A stretch of DNA of 64,000 bases, taken from NCBI GenBank assembly GCA_030447305.1, contig JAUJPC010000004.1:62001-126000 (forward strand), in the 5' to 3' direction. This document shows positions 2,994 through 22,456 of the stretch, in pieces. Position numbers and translations under genes: made by a program. The notes beneath the pieces were generated by a model that saw only the letters and a list, made by a program, of their open reading frames with translations, was not told where the DNA came from and ran no database searches. This stretch comes from Actinomycetota bacterium (GTDB taxonomy: Bacteria; Actinomycetota; CADDZG01; JAHWKV01). Within the stretch, counting starts at the first letter, position 1. Every line of letters begins with the position of its first letter.

Positions 2994-3860
2994 CTAGTGG
3001 GTGGCGTCGGCAGCCTTCGCCAGCTCCCACAGGGCCGCGGCGCTCATGGCGTCCATCGGAGCTTCCACTCCGGTCCAGATTTCGAATGACAAGGCCGCCT
3101 GGTGCAGCAGCATTCCCAGGCCGCTGTGCGCTATGGCGCCCTTGGCCCGGGCGGCTTCGATCAACGGAGTCACCGGAGGCCGGTAGACCAGGTCCACCAG
3201 AACGACCTCGGGCGAGATAGCGCCGACCGGTATCACGGGGAACTCGTTCTTCTGGCCGACAGGAGTGGCATTGACTATGACTCGGGCCTGCGAGACCCAC
3301 CTGTCCAGGTCCCCGTCGAGACCGGCCGCTTCGAAGATGACGTTGCCGGCCACCGCCCGCAGATCCTCTGCTCGTGAGACGTCGCGGGCCAGGACACACA
3401 GGTGCGCGACGCCTGCCTCGCCCAACGCAGCCACTGCCGCCCGGGCGGACCCGCCGGTTCCGATCACCAGCGCATGAGACTCCTGCAGGGATACCCCGAG
3501 GTCGGCCTCCAAGAATCGCCTCAGACCGTCGCCGTCTGTGTTGTGCCCGATAAGCTCCCCGGCTCGCACCTCGATGGTGTTGATCGCGCCGATTCGCTGA
3601 GCCGGCGGCGCCAGCCGGTCCATCACCGCCATGGCCGGCAGCTTGTGCGGCATGGTCACATTCATCCCCAGCACCCCCGAGGCGGCCAAACCCCGGATTG
3701 CAATTTCCAGGTCTTCCGGCGCCGGAGCGAAAGGGAGGTACACCCAATCCATGTGGAGGTCTTTGAAGGCTGCATTGTGGATGGCGGGGCTCAGGCTCAG
3801 CTTCACCTGGTCGGGGCTCCCCAGGATGCCGGTCAGGTGGGTCTGGCCCGATATCAGCAA
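2994..3860 (-). CDS. aroE: Shikimate dehydrogenase
   Basis: NADP-dependent reduction of 3-dehydroshikimate to shikimate. Visible motifs are the substrate-binding SLSPAIHNAAF, the NVTMPHK segment with the catalytic Lys, INTIEVRAG, and the nucleotide-binding GTGGSARA, followed by VNATPVGQ. I chose a TTG at 3860, overlapping the last codons of mltG, which gives 288 residues. The frame is open further upstream to an ATG at 3929, but that stretch lies inside mltG and does not resemble AroE. The overlap points to operon expression with mltG. Confidence 0.92.
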   Translation of the reverse strand: MLISGQTHLTGILGSPDQVKLSLSPAIHNAAFKDLHMDWVYLPFAPAPEDLEIAIRGLAASGVLGMNVTMPHKLPAMAVMDRLAPPAQRIGAINTIEVRAGELIGHNTDGDGLRRFLEADLGVSLQESHALVIGTGGSARAAVAALGEAGVAHLCVLARDVSRAEDLRAVAGNVIFEAAGLDGDLDRWVSQARVIVNATPVGQKNEFPVIPVGAISPEVVLVDLVYRPPVTPLIEAARAKGAIAHSGLGMLLHQAALSFEIWTGVEAPMDAMSAAALWELAKAADATH

Positions 3861-4858
3861 TTGGTGGGCTGGTTGTTCTTCGCGACCACGAACTCGTTGT
3901 AATCGGCCGTGAACTTGTGGTGAACGCAATCGCCGGTCAGCACGTAATAGAGGTAGTCGGAGTTGGCCGGACGCAGCGCCGCCTCGATGGACCCCTTACG
4001 AGGGCTCGATATCGGGTGCGGAGGCAAACCGGCGCGAGTGCGGCTGTTGAAGGGCGAGTCGATGTTCAGGTCGCTGACCGTCAACGGCTGGCCCTCGTAT
4101 TTGCGGACGGCGTACTGGATGGTCGCGTCGATGCCGAGAGGCATGTTTCTCTGCAGGCGGTTGTGGATGACCGCCGAGATCTCGTCCCGTTCGTCGGCCG
4201 ACTTCGCCTCCTCCTCGATGAGAGAGGCGATGATCAAAGTTTCGTAGGGGGTCCGGCCCTGGTCGTTGTCGGCCCCCAGATCGGCGTCCTCGGTCTGCTT
4301 GTGGAACTCGGACACCATGCGAGCGACCAGAGTCTGGGCCGTCTCCTTCTTCTCCACGAAGTAGGTGGTCGGGTAGAAGAACCCTTCCAGGGTCGTTCCT
4401 CCCTTTGGGAGGATCGTCGGACGGGCGGTGGCCGGAGTGGCCGCCGCCAGGAAGTCGGCGGCCGTAATATGGGTCTGCTCCTCCACCCGGGCAGCGGTCT
4501 GCTCTACGTTCATTCCCTCCGGGATGGTAAGCCGGACGAACTCCGCCGGCGGGCCCTTTCGCAGCTCGGCTATCAGGTCGTCGAACGGCTGCGCGGTCTC
4601 AAGCTTGTACCTGCCGGCTCGAAGATCGGCGTTGATGTCGTTCAGCCGCATGTAGAGCCTGAAGGCCATGGCGTTGTCCACGACTTTGGCCTCTTCGAGT
4701 GTCTCTGCAATCTTGGTGGCCGACGAGCCCTGCTCGATCGTTACCTCCACCGGCTCCCCGCCTGAGAACTCGGGACCCTTGGCCCAGTCCCACACCAGAT
4801 ACGCCACTGCCGCCCCGATGAATCCCAGGACCAGCAGCAACCCCAGAAACCTCCTCAA
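3854..4858 (-). CDS. mltG: Endolytic murein transglycosylase MltG (YceG-like)
   Basis: Membrane-anchored lytic transglycosylase that cuts nascent peptidoglycan strands. A single N-terminal membrane segment (residues 5-24) is followed by a LysM-like domain and then the YceG catalytic domain. ASLIEEEA carries the catalytic Glu near residue 215, with the conserved PLGIDATIQYA and NSRTRAGLPPHPISSPG-like segments after it. Length is 334 residues, normal for the family. The TTG start overlaps the ruvX stop (TTGA), and the gene runs into aroE. The ruvX-mltG-aroE order is common in actinobacteria. Confidence 0.94.
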   Translation of the reverse strand: MRRFLGLLLVLGFIGAAVAYLVWDWAKGPEFSGGEPVEVTIEQGSSATKIAETLEEAKVVDNAMAFRLYMRLNDINADLRAGRYKLETAQPFDDLIAELRKGPPAEFVRLTIPEGMNVEQTAARVEEQTHITAADFLAAATPATARPTILPKGGTTLEGFFYPTTYFVEKKETAQTLVARMVSEFHKQTEDADLGADNDQGRTPYETLIIASLIEEEAKSADERDEISAVIHNRLQRNMPLGIDATIQYAVRKYEGQPLTVSDLNIDSPFNSRTRAGLPPHPISSPRKGSIEAALRPANSDYLYYVLTGDCVHHKFTADYNEFVVAKNNQPTNC

Positions 4859-18593: not shown

Positions 18594-19850
18594 ATGAAGA
18601 TGCCCGGCCTCTCTGCAAGTTCACGCCGCCTGATCCGGCGGCGGTTCGTCGCACTTATCGGCCGACAGCGGACCAACTTCCGTCAGGGCATGGCGGCTCT
18701 TCTCGTCTCCTCTGCCGGAGATCTGGCGGCAGGCCTGGCGCTCGGATTCATGACCGGGACCCTGGAGAGGTTTCCCGGGTTGATCGTTCTGGTTCCCGCC
18801 GCGATCGGGATGAGGGGCAACATCTTCGGAGCCCTGGGTTCCCGCCTGGGGACGGCAATCCACACCGGCGAGTTTGAGGGCCGCGTGGAAAGGCGAAATC
18901 TGGCCGGCCAGAACGTCATGGCGTCTGCGGCGCTGACCCTCTACGTCTCCATCGCCCTTGCCGTGCTGGCCAAGGAGGTTGCCCGCCTGTTCGACGTCGA
19001 AACCATTCCGCTTTCCCACTACATCACGGTCTCGGTGGTGGGGGGTCTGCTGTCCAGCCTGGTGGTACTTGCGATCACCCTGTGGGTGGCCACCATGTCG
19101 GTAAGGCGGGGGTGGGACATGGACAACGTAGCGGCTCCGGTCGTAACGGCGGCCGGCGACCTGGTCACGCTGCCGGCTCTATGGCTGACGACCTTCTTGT
19201 TGCCGGTGGGCCGCACCCCCGAGGTCGTGGCCCTCCTGAGCGTGTTCGGCGCGGTTGTGACGACGCTGTATCAGCTACGCCGCTGGGAGCTGGCCGTCTT
19301 CCGCCGGGTGGTGCGCTCCAGCCTGGCGGTACTGATCATCGCGGGATTGGTCGATGTGGTGGCCGGTCTAACCATCGAGAAGCGCTTGGAGAGCTTTTTG
19401 CTCTATCCCGGCCTATTGGTGTTGATCCCTCCGTTTCTTGAGGATGCCGGTGCGCTGGGGGGCATCCTGTCGGCCCGACTATCCTCCAAGCTGCATCTTG
19501 GATCAATTCCGCCTCAGGCGATTCCCAGCAGCCGAAGCTGGGAAGACATTTCTCTGACCTATATTCTCGGAGTCCCAGTGTTCTTTTTTGTCGGTTTGAG
19601 CGGCACCATCGTCTCGCATGCGGTTGGGCTGGATACTCCCGGGCTGGTGCAGATGCTTTCGCTGACCATGCTGGCCGGCGCCATTGCCACTACCGGAGCG
19701 ATCTTTGTCGCCTACTACACCGCAATGATCTCGTTTCGCCATGGGCTCGACCCGGACAACTACGGCATCCCGGTGGTCACGAGCTCCATGGACCTGATAG
19801 GGGCGGTGGCCCTCATCCTGTCGATGGTCTGGTTGGGGATAGCCGGTTGA
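18594..19850 (+). CDS. SLC41/MgtE-type divalent cation transporter with tandem duplicated membrane domains
   Basis: Predicted Mg2+ or other divalent cation transporter. The protein contains two copies of the MgtE membrane domain: PAAIGMRGNIFGALGSRLGT in the first half corresponds to PPFLEDAGALGGILSARLSS in the second, so it is an internal duplication of the SLC41 type. It lacks the cytoplasmic N and CBS domains of classical MgtE. About ten hydrophobic segments are seen. The stop codon overlaps the start of the next gene, a PhoU/TrkA-C protein that probably supplies the missing cytoplasmic regulatory part. Confidence 0.85.
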   Translation: MKMPGLSASSRRLIRRRFVALIGRQRTNFRQGMAALLVSSAGDLAAGLALGFMTGTLERFPGLIVLVPAAIGMRGNIFGALGSRLGTAIHTGEFEGRVERRNLAGQNVMASAALTLYVSIALAVLAKEVARLFDVETIPLSHYITVSVVGGLLSSLVVLAITLWVATMSVRRGWDMDNVAAPVVTAAGDLVTLPALWLTTFLLPVGRTPEVVALLSVFGAVVTTLYQLRRWELAVFRRVVRSSLAVLIIAGLVDVVAGLTIEKRLESFLLYPGLLVLIPPFLEDAGALGGILSARLSSKLHLGSIPPQAIPSSRSWEDISLTYILGVPVFFFVGLSGTIVSHAVGLDTPGLVQMLSLTMLAGAIATTGAIFVAYYTAMISFRHGLDPDNYGIPVVTSSMDLIGAVALILSMVWLGIAG

Positions 19851-21019
19851 ACGAACAGCCGAGGACTCTGAAGGCCATGCTGGCGCATGCGAAGGACACG
19901 TCCGAGCTCATGCTGGACCTGGCCTACGCCGGCCTGTTCTACGCGGACCGGGACTTGTCGGGTGAGGTGCTCGAGCTCGAGGAGGAACTTAGCCGCCTGG
20001 TCCACCGGATGCGGGAGGTTTGCCTGCTCGCATCCCGCAGCCCGCAGGATGCCGCCGGACTGGCCTCGCTTCTGCAGGTGATGTCGTCCATCGAGATGAT
20101 CGGCAACCAGGCGGTGGACGTCGCCAAGATCGTGCTGGACTCGCTGGGCATACCGAAGGAGCTGAGGACGGACCTGTCGCAGGCCGACGAGGTTATCGAC
20201 CGCATGCAGGTGCAGGAGGGCAGCGAGCTGCACGGGCGCAGCGTCGACGAACTGGAGAACGCAGTTGAGGAGGTGCGCCTGCTGGCAATCCGCCGGGGGA
20301 CCCGGTGGCTGTTCGACCCCGCCGACGAGGGAGTTTTACAGGGCTCCGACATCCTGGTTGTGCGGGGGCATCCGGAGGGGCTGCCGCAGTTAAGGCGCCT
20401 GGCGGGAATGGCGGCCAAGCCGGGACCCAGCACCGACGAGCAAAGCTACTGGGAACTGGACAAAGCGGTCGACGAGGTGGTCGACATGAAGGACCTGGCT
20501 GAGGCGGCCGTCGGCTTGGCCTACGCCGCAGTGCTGTTCGACGACCGGGGTCTGGCGGCCGAGGTGGTCCGCCTGGAGGACCGGCTGGACGACATGCGTG
20601 AGAGCATCGAGTCCTGGGTGCTCGACGCGGCGGCGGAGTCCCGCAACCGCCCGTCCCTGCGGGGCCTGCTGCACCTGGCGGTGGCCTCGGAGGGCATCGG
20701 CGACGCTGCCCAGGCGATGGTGTGGCTCATCGAGCGGGACGAGGAGCTGCACCCGGTCATCGCCGAGGCGCTGGGGGCCGCCGAGGACGTGGTGCAGGGC
20801 CGCACGGTGCGCGAAAAGGCGCCGGCAGACAACAGTTCGCTGGGCGAGCTGGACCTGCGGGGCATGAACCCCCTGGCGTTCTCCCGTAGGGGCCGGTGGA
20901 TTTACCGGCCGAGAGGAAGGACCATACTGCAGGAAGGCGACCGGCTGATCCTGATAGGCCCGTCGGAGGCGGTCGAGCACCTGGAGTACCTGTTCGGAGA
21001 GGAAGAGCCGGAAGACTGA
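19847..21019 (+). CDS. Tandem PhoU-like / TrkA-C (RCK_C) regulatory protein of the SLC41 transporter
   Basis: Soluble protein made of two repeats. Each begins with a PhoU-like helical bundle (AYAGLFYADRDLSGEVLELE and AYAAVLFDDRGLAAEVVRLE) and ends with a TrkA-C ligand-binding domain (ending LQGSDILVVRGHPEGL and LQEGDRLILIGPSEAV). The two-fold repeat matches the two-fold membrane repeat of the preceding transporter, whose gene it overlaps by 4 nt. Archaea and some bacteria pair such proteins with SLC41/MgtE or anion transporters. By inference it gates the transporter in response to a nucleotide or ion. Confidence 0.82.
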   Translation: MNEQPRTLKAMLAHAKDTSELMLDLAYAGLFYADRDLSGEVLELEEELSRLVHRMREVCLLASRSPQDAAGLASLLQVMSSIEMIGNQAVDVAKIVLDSLGIPKELRTDLSQADEVIDRMQVQEGSELHGRSVDELENAVEEVRLLAIRRGTRWLFDPADEGVLQGSDILVVRGHPEGLPQLRRLAGMAAKPGPSTDEQSYWELDKAVDEVVDMKDLAEAAVGLAYAAVLFDDRGLAAEVVRLEDRLDDMRESIESWVLDAAAESRNRPSLRGLLHLAVASEGIGDAAQAMVWLIERDEELHPVIAEALGAAEDVVQGRTVREKAPADNSSLGELDLRGMNPLAFSRRGRWIYRPRGRTILQEGDRLILIGPSEAVEHLEYLFGEEEPED

Positions 21020-21030
21020 CCGCGGGTTTC

Positions 21031-21516
21031 TCAACGCCGAGGCGCCACGTGGCCGATGGGCCGAGGTTCCCAAGCATCGGGCATAGCCAGCAGCTCCTCT
21101 ACCGGCGTGGGCAGCTCGCCGGCCAGGACGTCGGCCAGCGTGACGGACTCGAGCACGAGTCGTAGCGCGGCGCGCACGGCCACCCACACCTGCTGAAGAT
21201 GTGCGGCCGGGCCGTCGTATTCCGTGTTCTCCGGGCGTATGCCTCGCACCTCGGCCAGCGGGCCCTCCAGGACACGGAAGATGTCGGCCACTGCGATCTG
21301 ATCGGCCGGCCGGGCCAGCCTATAACCCCCCTCGGAGCCACGCTGGCTGGTGACGATCCCCTGCCGCCGGAGCTCCACCAGGGTGTTCTCAACGAACTTG
21401 ACCGGAAGACCCTGCGCCTTCGCCAGGAGCTCGCCCCTTATGGCGCTCCCGGCCGGCGCCGCGGCCAGGGTGAGGAGAACCCGGATGGCGTAGTCGACCT
21501 TAGCCGGAATGTACAT
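21031..21516 (-). CDS. Rrf2-family transcriptional regulator (no Fe-S cysteines)
   Basis: Winged-helix repressor of the Rrf2 family. The N-terminus MYIPAKVDYAIRVLLTLA and the helix-turn-helix through LPVKFVENTLVELRRQGIV and GSEGGYRLARP are diagnostic. There is no Cys in the protein, so unlike IscR, NsrR or RsrR it should not bind an iron-sulfur cluster. CymR-like sensing is a possible alternative. It is divergent from a TauE/SafE exporter gene, and a palindrome lies in the 61-bp gap between them. Confidence 0.9.
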   Translation of the reverse strand: MYIPAKVDYAIRVLLTLAAAPAGSAIRGELLAKAQGLPVKFVENTLVELRRQGIVTSQRGSEGGYRLARPADQIAVADIFRVLEGPLAEVRGIRPENTEYDGPAAHLQQVWVAVRAALRLVLESVTLADVLAGELPTPVEELLAMPDAWEPRPIGHVAPRR

Positions 21517-21551
21517 CTCGCAATCGTCTCATGAGTGGCCGCTTGCCTTAA

Positions 21552-21577
21552 TCCACAATGTCCATTAGTTTTGTGGA
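21552..21577. promoter_or_regulatory. Candidate Rrf2 operator between rrf2-like gene and tauE-like gene
   Basis: TCCACAA (21552-21558) and TTGTGGA (21571-21577) form a perfect 7-bp inverted repeat with a 12-nt AT-rich spacer, ending right at the GTG start of the exporter gene. Its location between a regulator and a divergent transporter suggests control of both. Confidence 0.55.
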
Positions 21578-22456
21578 GTGAACGATCTGGTCGTCGTCTT
21601 TCTCGCCGGCTTTGCTGCATCGCTCGTCGACGGTGTCCTGGGGATGGGCTTTGGACCCACCTCGTCCAGCATTCTTCTCGGAAGTGGGCTCCCGCCTGCA
21701 GCAGTCTCCACCACGGTCAACCTCGCCAAGGTCGCGACCGGGCTCACCGCCGCCATAGCCCACTGGCGTTTCGACAATATTGATCGTCGCCTGGTTCGGC
21801 AGCTGGCTCTTCCGGGCTCGCTGGGAGCCCTCATCGGCGTCACCGTCCTGACAAGTGTTGACGGCGACAGGCTGAAGCCCATCCTGGCCGTGCTGCTTCT
21901 CTTCATGGCGGGACGAATTCTGTTGCGGTTCAGCCGGCCGCTGCCGACGAGGAGTGACGGCACCGACGCCCGGGCCGGCAACCGCTTAGGGCACGACGAG
22001 CGAGGAACAGCGGCCGTGGCCGCCGTCGGCGGAGTGACCAACGGTCTGGTTGGGGCGTGGGGCCCGGTGGTGACTCCGTTCCTGCTTCAGCGCGGCGTCT
22101 CTCCCCGTTACGCCGTCGGGTCGGTCAACACCGCCGAGATGGCGGTCGCGGTCGTGGCCTCCGGCTCGCTTCTGGCCTCGGTCGGGGGCGGCGGCATCGA
22201 CCTCGCCATCGTCGTAGCAATGCTCGCCGGAGGAGTGCTGGCTGCACCCATCGCTGCATGGGGGATCCGTTTCCTGCCGGCACGCGGCCTGGGCATAGCC
22301 ATCGGCGGCCTGCTCTTGGCCACGAACCTCCGGGAGCTTATGTCATCGACCGGCCTGCCGGTGGTTCCGTGGTTGGGATACGGCCTCGTCGCCCTCGCGT
22401 GCGGCTGGGCATTCGTGCGGTCGCGCCCGGTTCAGCAGCGCTCCGGCCGCACGTAG
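21578..22456 (+). CDS. TauE/SafE-family membrane exporter (sulfite/organosulfonate type)
   Basis: Eight-helix membrane protein of the TauE/SafE (DUF81) family. The repeated motif is visible in LAGFAASLVDGVLGMGFGP and again around VGGVTNGLVGAWGPVVTPFLL. Members export sulfite, sulfoacetate or similar anions, but the substrate cannot be read from sequence. The GTG at 21578 is the first possible start, since an in-frame stop lies just upstream. There is no Shine-Dalgarno sequence, so the mRNA may be leaderless. The divergent Rrf2 gene and the palindrome suggest regulation by sulfur or redox status. Confidence 0.85.
   Translation: MNDLVVVFLAGFAASLVDGVLGMGFGPTSSSILLGSGLPPAAVSTTVNLAKVATGLTAAIAHWRFDNIDRRLVRQLALPGSLGALIGVTVLTSVDGDRLKPILAVLLLFMAGRILLRFSRPLPTRSDGTDARAGNRLGHDERGTAAVAAVGGVTNGLVGAWGPVVTPFLLQRGVSPRYAVGSVNTAEMAVAVVASGSLLASVGGGGIDLAIVVAMLAGGVLAAPIAAWGIRFLPARGLGIAIGGLLLATNLRELMSSTGLPVVPWLGYGLVALACGWAFVRSRPVQQRSGRT

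Follow-up and report, generated by a model that had tools for sequence, protein, structure and literature searches.

A candidate magnesium transporter and regulator pair of bacteria and archaea: a double-MgtE membrane protein without CBS domains and its co-inherited PhoU-TrkA_C partner

Double-MgtE membrane proteins that lack CBS domains have been described from archaea and animals (PMC9276622; PMC13022745), and the doubled motif was given as occurring only in Archaea, choanoflagellates and metazoa (PMC9276622). Members of the SLC41 family are reported to be Na+/Mg2+ antiporters, with Na+/Mg2+ exchange reported for human SLC41, and a review calls for comparative genomics of the CBS-less double-MgtE/SLC41 branch (PMC9276622). 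In canonical MgtE, represented by the structures of the T. thermophilus protein (PDB 2zy9, 2yvx, 4u9n), the gate is formed by N and CBS domains of the same chain, and Asp432 is reported to be essential for Mg2+ selectivity (PMC3435302).

Among soluble proteins, PH0236 of Pyrococcus horikoshii (PDB 1vct, 2bkn, 2bko, 2bkp) carries a single PhoU-TrkA_C unit per chain and was labelled by its depositors as a putative potassium-channel related protein or as a protein of unknown function. In the KhtT-KhtU and TrkA-TrkH systems, a soluble TrkA_C protein controls a membrane ion transporter; both are K+ systems and neither has a PhoU domain. TrkA also carries a nucleotide-binding RCK_N domain. PhoU proteins, which take part in PstSCAB/PhoR signalling and include T. 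maritima PhoU with its iron clusters, consist of a helical-bundle domain with a pair of ExxxD motifs. The motif of the PhoU metal cluster is described as E(D)XXXD (PMC5686610).

The window, which is the whole stretch of 64,000 nucleotides that was analysed, belongs to a bacterial genome of 2.88 Mb (98% complete). It encodes a fused two-repeat MgtE/SLC41-like membrane protein, here called M (18594-19850, 418 aa, ATG to TGA), followed by a fused two-unit PhoU and TrkA_C soluble protein, here called R (19847-21019, 390 aa, TTG start). Both assignments are based on Pfam, self-alignment and AlphaFold2, and all features given below for the two genes are on the + strand. By the gene coordinates, R starts at 19847 and the stop codon of M ends at 19850, so that the overlap of 4 nt named in the original prediction is present (TTGA, 19847-19850). 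M is the sole PF01769 protein of the genome. The neighbours of the pair, as read from the sequence, are a GDSL-type hydrolase, an Rrf2-type regulator and a TauE/SafE-type permease, and they give no functional hint. The latter two lie downstream of the pair at 21031-22456 (regulator on the - strand, permease on the + strand), with no sign of a link to it. A search for Mg2+ and c-di-AMP riboswitches upstream of the pair found none, its two matches both scoring far below the gathering score.

The Pfam domain MgtE (PF01769) was found twice in M with 115 bits (cut-off 27.6), and M has no Pfam match to MgtE_N or CBS. Its two halves align without gaps over 174 residues with an identity of 25% (E=1e-15), which confirms that M is an internal duplication of the MgtE membrane domain without N and CBS domains. 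Repeat 1 (residues 26-205, 18669-19208) and repeat 2 (residues 234-418, 19293-19847) have five predicted TM helices each. The AlphaFold2 model (pLDDT 94.1, pTM 0.90) consists of five helices, one connector helix and another five helices. The connector (residues 208-229, 19215-19280) was delimited from this model and from a comparison of linkers. A linker of 32-40 aa with a hydrophobic stretch of 17 residues is present in all 90 fused M sequences, and it is absent from the split archaeal M genes inspected, which end only a few residues from the unit boundary. As one MgtE repeat has five TM helices, the odd connector helix would place both repeats of M in the same orientation, matching the MgtE homodimer; this parallel arrangement is predicted from the helix count.

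Repeat 1 of M contains the motif PX6GN (P68-N76) and a DX4PX6D motif with M in place of P (D177-D189), while repeat 2 contains PX6GA and an exact PDX4PX6D (P387-D400). The second motif is exact only in repeat 2 in bacteria, where repeat 1 has M or L for P, and is exact in both repeats in archaea. The codons of D189 (19158-19160) and of its repeat-2 counterpart D400 (19791-19793) are invariant in 115 of 115 loci, and both aspartates align with Asp432 of T. thermophilus MgtE, the number being derived from chain offsets. The M-unit profile matches the TM domain of the same protein with E=2e-7, and a Foldseek comparison with MgtE gave a local match to one repeat. Foldseek also returned MATE transporters (TM 0.2-0.4, rmsd 11-19 Å), which was judged a chance likeness of 11-12-helix proteins.

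M resembles canonical MgtE in its homologous TM domain, in the pore aspartate, which it keeps twice, and in a presumed parallel two-fold pore. It differs from MgtE in forming a pseudo-dimer within one chain and in having its candidate gate, R, as a separate protein of unrelated fold. With the archaeal and animal SLC41-type proteins it shares two repeats with PX6G(N) and DX4PX6D motifs and the absence of N and CBS domains; unlike these, it is bacterial, and its operon includes the gene of a PhoU-TrkA_C partner. In a comparison of bacterial and archaeal sequences, the predicted likeness to SLC41 is supported at the level of motif and architecture; M is a putative member of the SLC41/archaeal double-MgtE subtype, with two repeats and no CBS domains but with motifs that agree only in part.

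Pfam identified two PhoU and two TrkA_C domains in R and no match to RCK_N. The halves of R can be aligned over 172 residues with 27% identity (E=5e-15), in agreement with the predicted duplication of a PhoU plus TrkA-C unit, and the AlphaFold2 model reached a pLDDT of 84.6 and a pTM of 0.81. Unit 1 (residues 4-188, 19856-20410) is about one third identical to PH0236 (PDB 1vct), and its ExxxD motifs are partly lost (S49, N87). Across the family, the second acidic residue of the unit 1 motifs is often lost, and these motifs are degenerate in the window and in most bacteria. In unit 2 (residues 204-390, 20456-21016; Pfam, AlphaFold2), both the first ExxxD motif (E244-D248, 20576-20590) and the second (E282-D286, 20690-20704) are invariant in 136 of 136 loci. 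Given this invariant pair and the known PhoU metal-cluster motif, we infer that the PhoU domain of unit 2 binds a divalent metal.

PH0236 is the best structure match of R (1vct and others, E=9e-13), followed by TrkA, GsuK and PhoU. The PhoU-TrkA_C unit of PH0236 corresponds to that of R (E=1.6e-32, TMt 0.73), the difference being its single unit per chain; its relatives in Thermococci occur as pairs of one-unit genes (r, r). R shares the helical bundle and the ExxxD pair with PhoU proteins, which have Pst/PhoR partners, whereas in R each PhoU domain is paired with TrkA_C and the partner is of the MgtE type. The fold matches also include TrkA-TrkH and KhtT, earlier examples in which a soluble RCK_C protein regulates an ion transporter.

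M and R are side by side in 29 of the 30 regulator loci examined. With both genes conserved together in these loci, their adjacency is more than chance. Related pairs were found in records of Rubrobacter, Nitriliruptorales and Acidimicrobiia, which makes an actinobacterial lineage most likely for the window. Of 199 genomes from the bacterial phylum of the window, 64 encode M and 65 encode R, the latter counted by strong matches. The archaeal phylum surveyed (148 genomes) has M in 121 and R in 124. No genome with M alone was found among the 64 bacterial and 121 archaeal M genomes. The original prediction would have been contradicted by homologues that never co-occur; instead, the two genes were found together in 64/64 and 121/121 M genomes. 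R without M was seen in four genomes across both phyla, and in the sole bacterial one (G171) R is cut by the start of the contig. Among 17 genomes with a locus that were checked for M, it was missing only from a Thermoplasmata MAG (G208). In the phylum to which the Bathyarchaeota locus belongs, 40 of 101 genomes also carry R units, almost always two per genome. As judged from these sequences, the M-R pair is widespread and ancient. A halophilic archaeon (G211, of locus L071) additionally has several M-unit fragments about 10 kb from R, one of them with an internal TAG (G211:C1:1922721-1925317), which may be a decaying duplicate.

The number of units is conserved through all four forms in which the genes occur. 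Bacteria have fused M and fused R, Thermococci fused M with r, r, Methanocellales (L042, L043) two one-unit M genes (m, m) with fused R, and a euryarchaeal MAG (L045) four genes in the order m, m, r, r. Every locus examined has two M to two R units, with a single exception. This is G107, in which two complete M genes in tandem precede one R gene (L146, G107:C63, 705-3268, + strand), giving four M to two R units. A natural fusion of M with R was not found among the loci surveyed. The proposed coupling of the two proteins, with one regulatory unit per membrane repeat, is upheld by the 2:2 ratio, which is kept even with four separate archaeal genes, and by the fact that M never occurs without R.

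In trees of 230 M and 272 R units, M1 separates from M2 and R1 from R2 without a single misplaced unit, whether the genes are archaeal or bacterial, fused or split. Support at the central branches is modest (0.72 and 0.42), and it is the perfect split that carries the argument. When canonical MgtE serves as outgroup, the M family remains one group, set off from MgtE by a long branch, with M1 as a clade (support 77) and M2 unsettled near the root. Based on the unit trees, the duplications of M and of R are most likely both older than the spread between domains, M1 and M2, like R1 and R2, having remained distinct ever since.

Physical linkage of the genes is not universal. They are nearly always adjacent in bacteria, yet lie on different contigs in G135 (R at L014), and in several Thermococcus genomes M lies apart from the r, r pair; both genes are still present in each case. 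Such unlinked genes would suit a cytosolic phosphate- or metal-responsive R that shares an operon and a physiological role with M and makes no contact with it. We consider this improbable, since neither the absence of M genomes without R (0 of 185, with linked or unlinked genes) nor a 2:2 parity that outlasted repeated fusion or fission is easily accounted for unless the two proteins assemble stoichiometrically. With regard to contact, raw mutual information between M and R was enriched on the cytoplasmic side of M, a signal that was not consistent after correction for relatedness by removal of principal components.

Several observations link the pair to magnesium. MgtE_N is absent from the whole genome of the window, and in the phylum it is found in 9 of 64 genomes with M compared to 100 of 135 others (p=5e-16, a value that ignores kinship, with phylogeny only partly controlled). 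The exchange of M for MgtE_N recurs within families f8, f11, f42 and f44 and within one genus (g35, G024 versus G064). In G135, M (L147, G135:C3:187500-193500, at 3124-4437 on the - strand) is not adjacent to R and lies directly upstream of a corA gene of the same strand. In family f9 and in G171, corA is found on the opposite strand, at a distance of about 3 kb from the pair, with an IspH/LytB-like gene between them in G107. CorA is encoded elsewhere in the genome of the window, so that M and R are not the only Mg2+ route of this organism.

Two further loci with MgtE_N genes were observed. A sister species of the window's genus (L150, G104:C44:500-4500, 200-2369, - strand) encodes a TM-less MgtE_N-CBS-like protein, followed by a full canonical MgtE (N-CBS-TM); these genes adjoin a mechanosensitive-channel-like gene. 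G153 has, besides a standard pair, a second and divergent R-like protein with 30% identity (C97:7762-8928), and an MgtE_N gene (C97:6416) lies on the same strand at a distance of about 1 kb.

The presence of CorA, which could supply uptake, also bears on the direction of transport. M and R could be a real transporter-regulator pair in which M is an exporter or exchanger that R opens at high cytosolic cation, and the doubled motifs and missing CBS domains that M has in common with archaeal and animal SLC41-type proteins (PMC9276622) would fit such a role. Since M replaces canonical MgtE, which is an uptake channel, across relatives, we regard export or exchange as rather unlikely.

Regarding the ligand of R, the PhoU metal motifs of unit 2 point to a divalent metal. 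The ligand would then be less different from the Mg2+ sensed by MgtE than the original prediction supposed. The TrkA_C domains of R resemble KhtT, including its c-di-AMP-bound structure 7agv. R could accordingly be an RCK_C-type receptor for c-di-AMP or a nucleotide through which Mg2+ transport follows the osmotic or K+ state, in the manner of KtrA, CpaA and KhtT, and the c-di-AMP synthase DAC (PF02457) is indeed encoded in many other genomes with the pair and in three archaeal control genomes. In the genome of the window, however, DAC is absent, as it is from the 17 relatives sampled within its genus, family, order and class, 15 of which carry the pair. Across the phylum, DAC and the pair are anticorrelated (29 of 64 genomes with M and R, 111 of 135 others). 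We give little credence to R as such a receptor; the DAC counts speak against c-di-AMP, and ATP, NAD or cations may be ligands. With no synthase in this genome or in the sampled class, c-di-AMP is an unlikely ligand in the organism of the window.

Taken together, we favour, with slightly better than even confidence, the reading that M and R form one unit: a transporter of divalent cations, most likely Mg2+, with an MgtE/SLC41 fold, that is gated by R as a metal-sensing cytosolic partner. The choice of Mg2+ is supported by the match to the MgtE TM profile, the invariant pore aspartates, the tendency of M and MgtE_N to exclude one another and the position of corA beside M in G135. Weighing against the reading are the CorA of the same genome, the nine M genomes that also have MgtE_N, the four-to-two locus of G107 and the lack of an Mg2+ riboswitch upstream. 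Within this transporter-regulator model we infer the cation, its direction, the binding, the gating and its polarity, the contact and the parallel topology. M would mimic the MgtE homodimer in a single chain, with parallel repeats restored by the odd connector helix. R would form a matching two-fold helical bundle on the cytoplasmic face of M, at the site where MgtE has its own N/CBS gate. The PhoU domain of unit 2 would take up a divalent metal at its two ExxxD motifs and thereby signal the level of Mg2+, or of a related metal, in the cytosol. A second input may come from the two TrkA_C domains and is probably not c-di-AMP in the window's organism. R would keep M closed when the cytosolic cation is high and free it when the cation is low.

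In the open-access literature, as far as its partial coverage reaches, no description of the M-R pair, of a PhoU-TrkA_C partner or of the regulation of prokaryotic members of the branch was found. The CBS-less double-MgtE pore is known, while the proposed trans-acting, structurally unrelated regulator is suggested to be new, within the limits of that partial coverage. More tentatively, and at somewhat less than even confidence, M and R may represent an ancient, domain-spanning class of Mg2+ transporters with a fused pseudo-dimer MgtE-type pore, in which an unrelated two-fold PhoU-TrkA_C protein has taken the place of the Mg2+ gate in trans. The PhoU domain of unit 2 would be a strictly conserved metal site among four sensor modules, and the others would carry a second signal.

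These results indicate that bacteria, like archaea, commonly have members of the CBS-less double-MgtE/SLC41 branch. With its presence in 185 of 185 M genomes, R is a concrete regulator candidate for the prokaryotic part of this branch, and it offers a role for solved structures of 'unknown function' such as PH0236. Archaea with split genes provide natural sets of two to four subunits with which the stoichiometry could be reconstituted. If the proposed mechanism is true, R would supply the regulatory subunit that has been missing from the prokaryotic part of the CBS-less SLC41-like branch.
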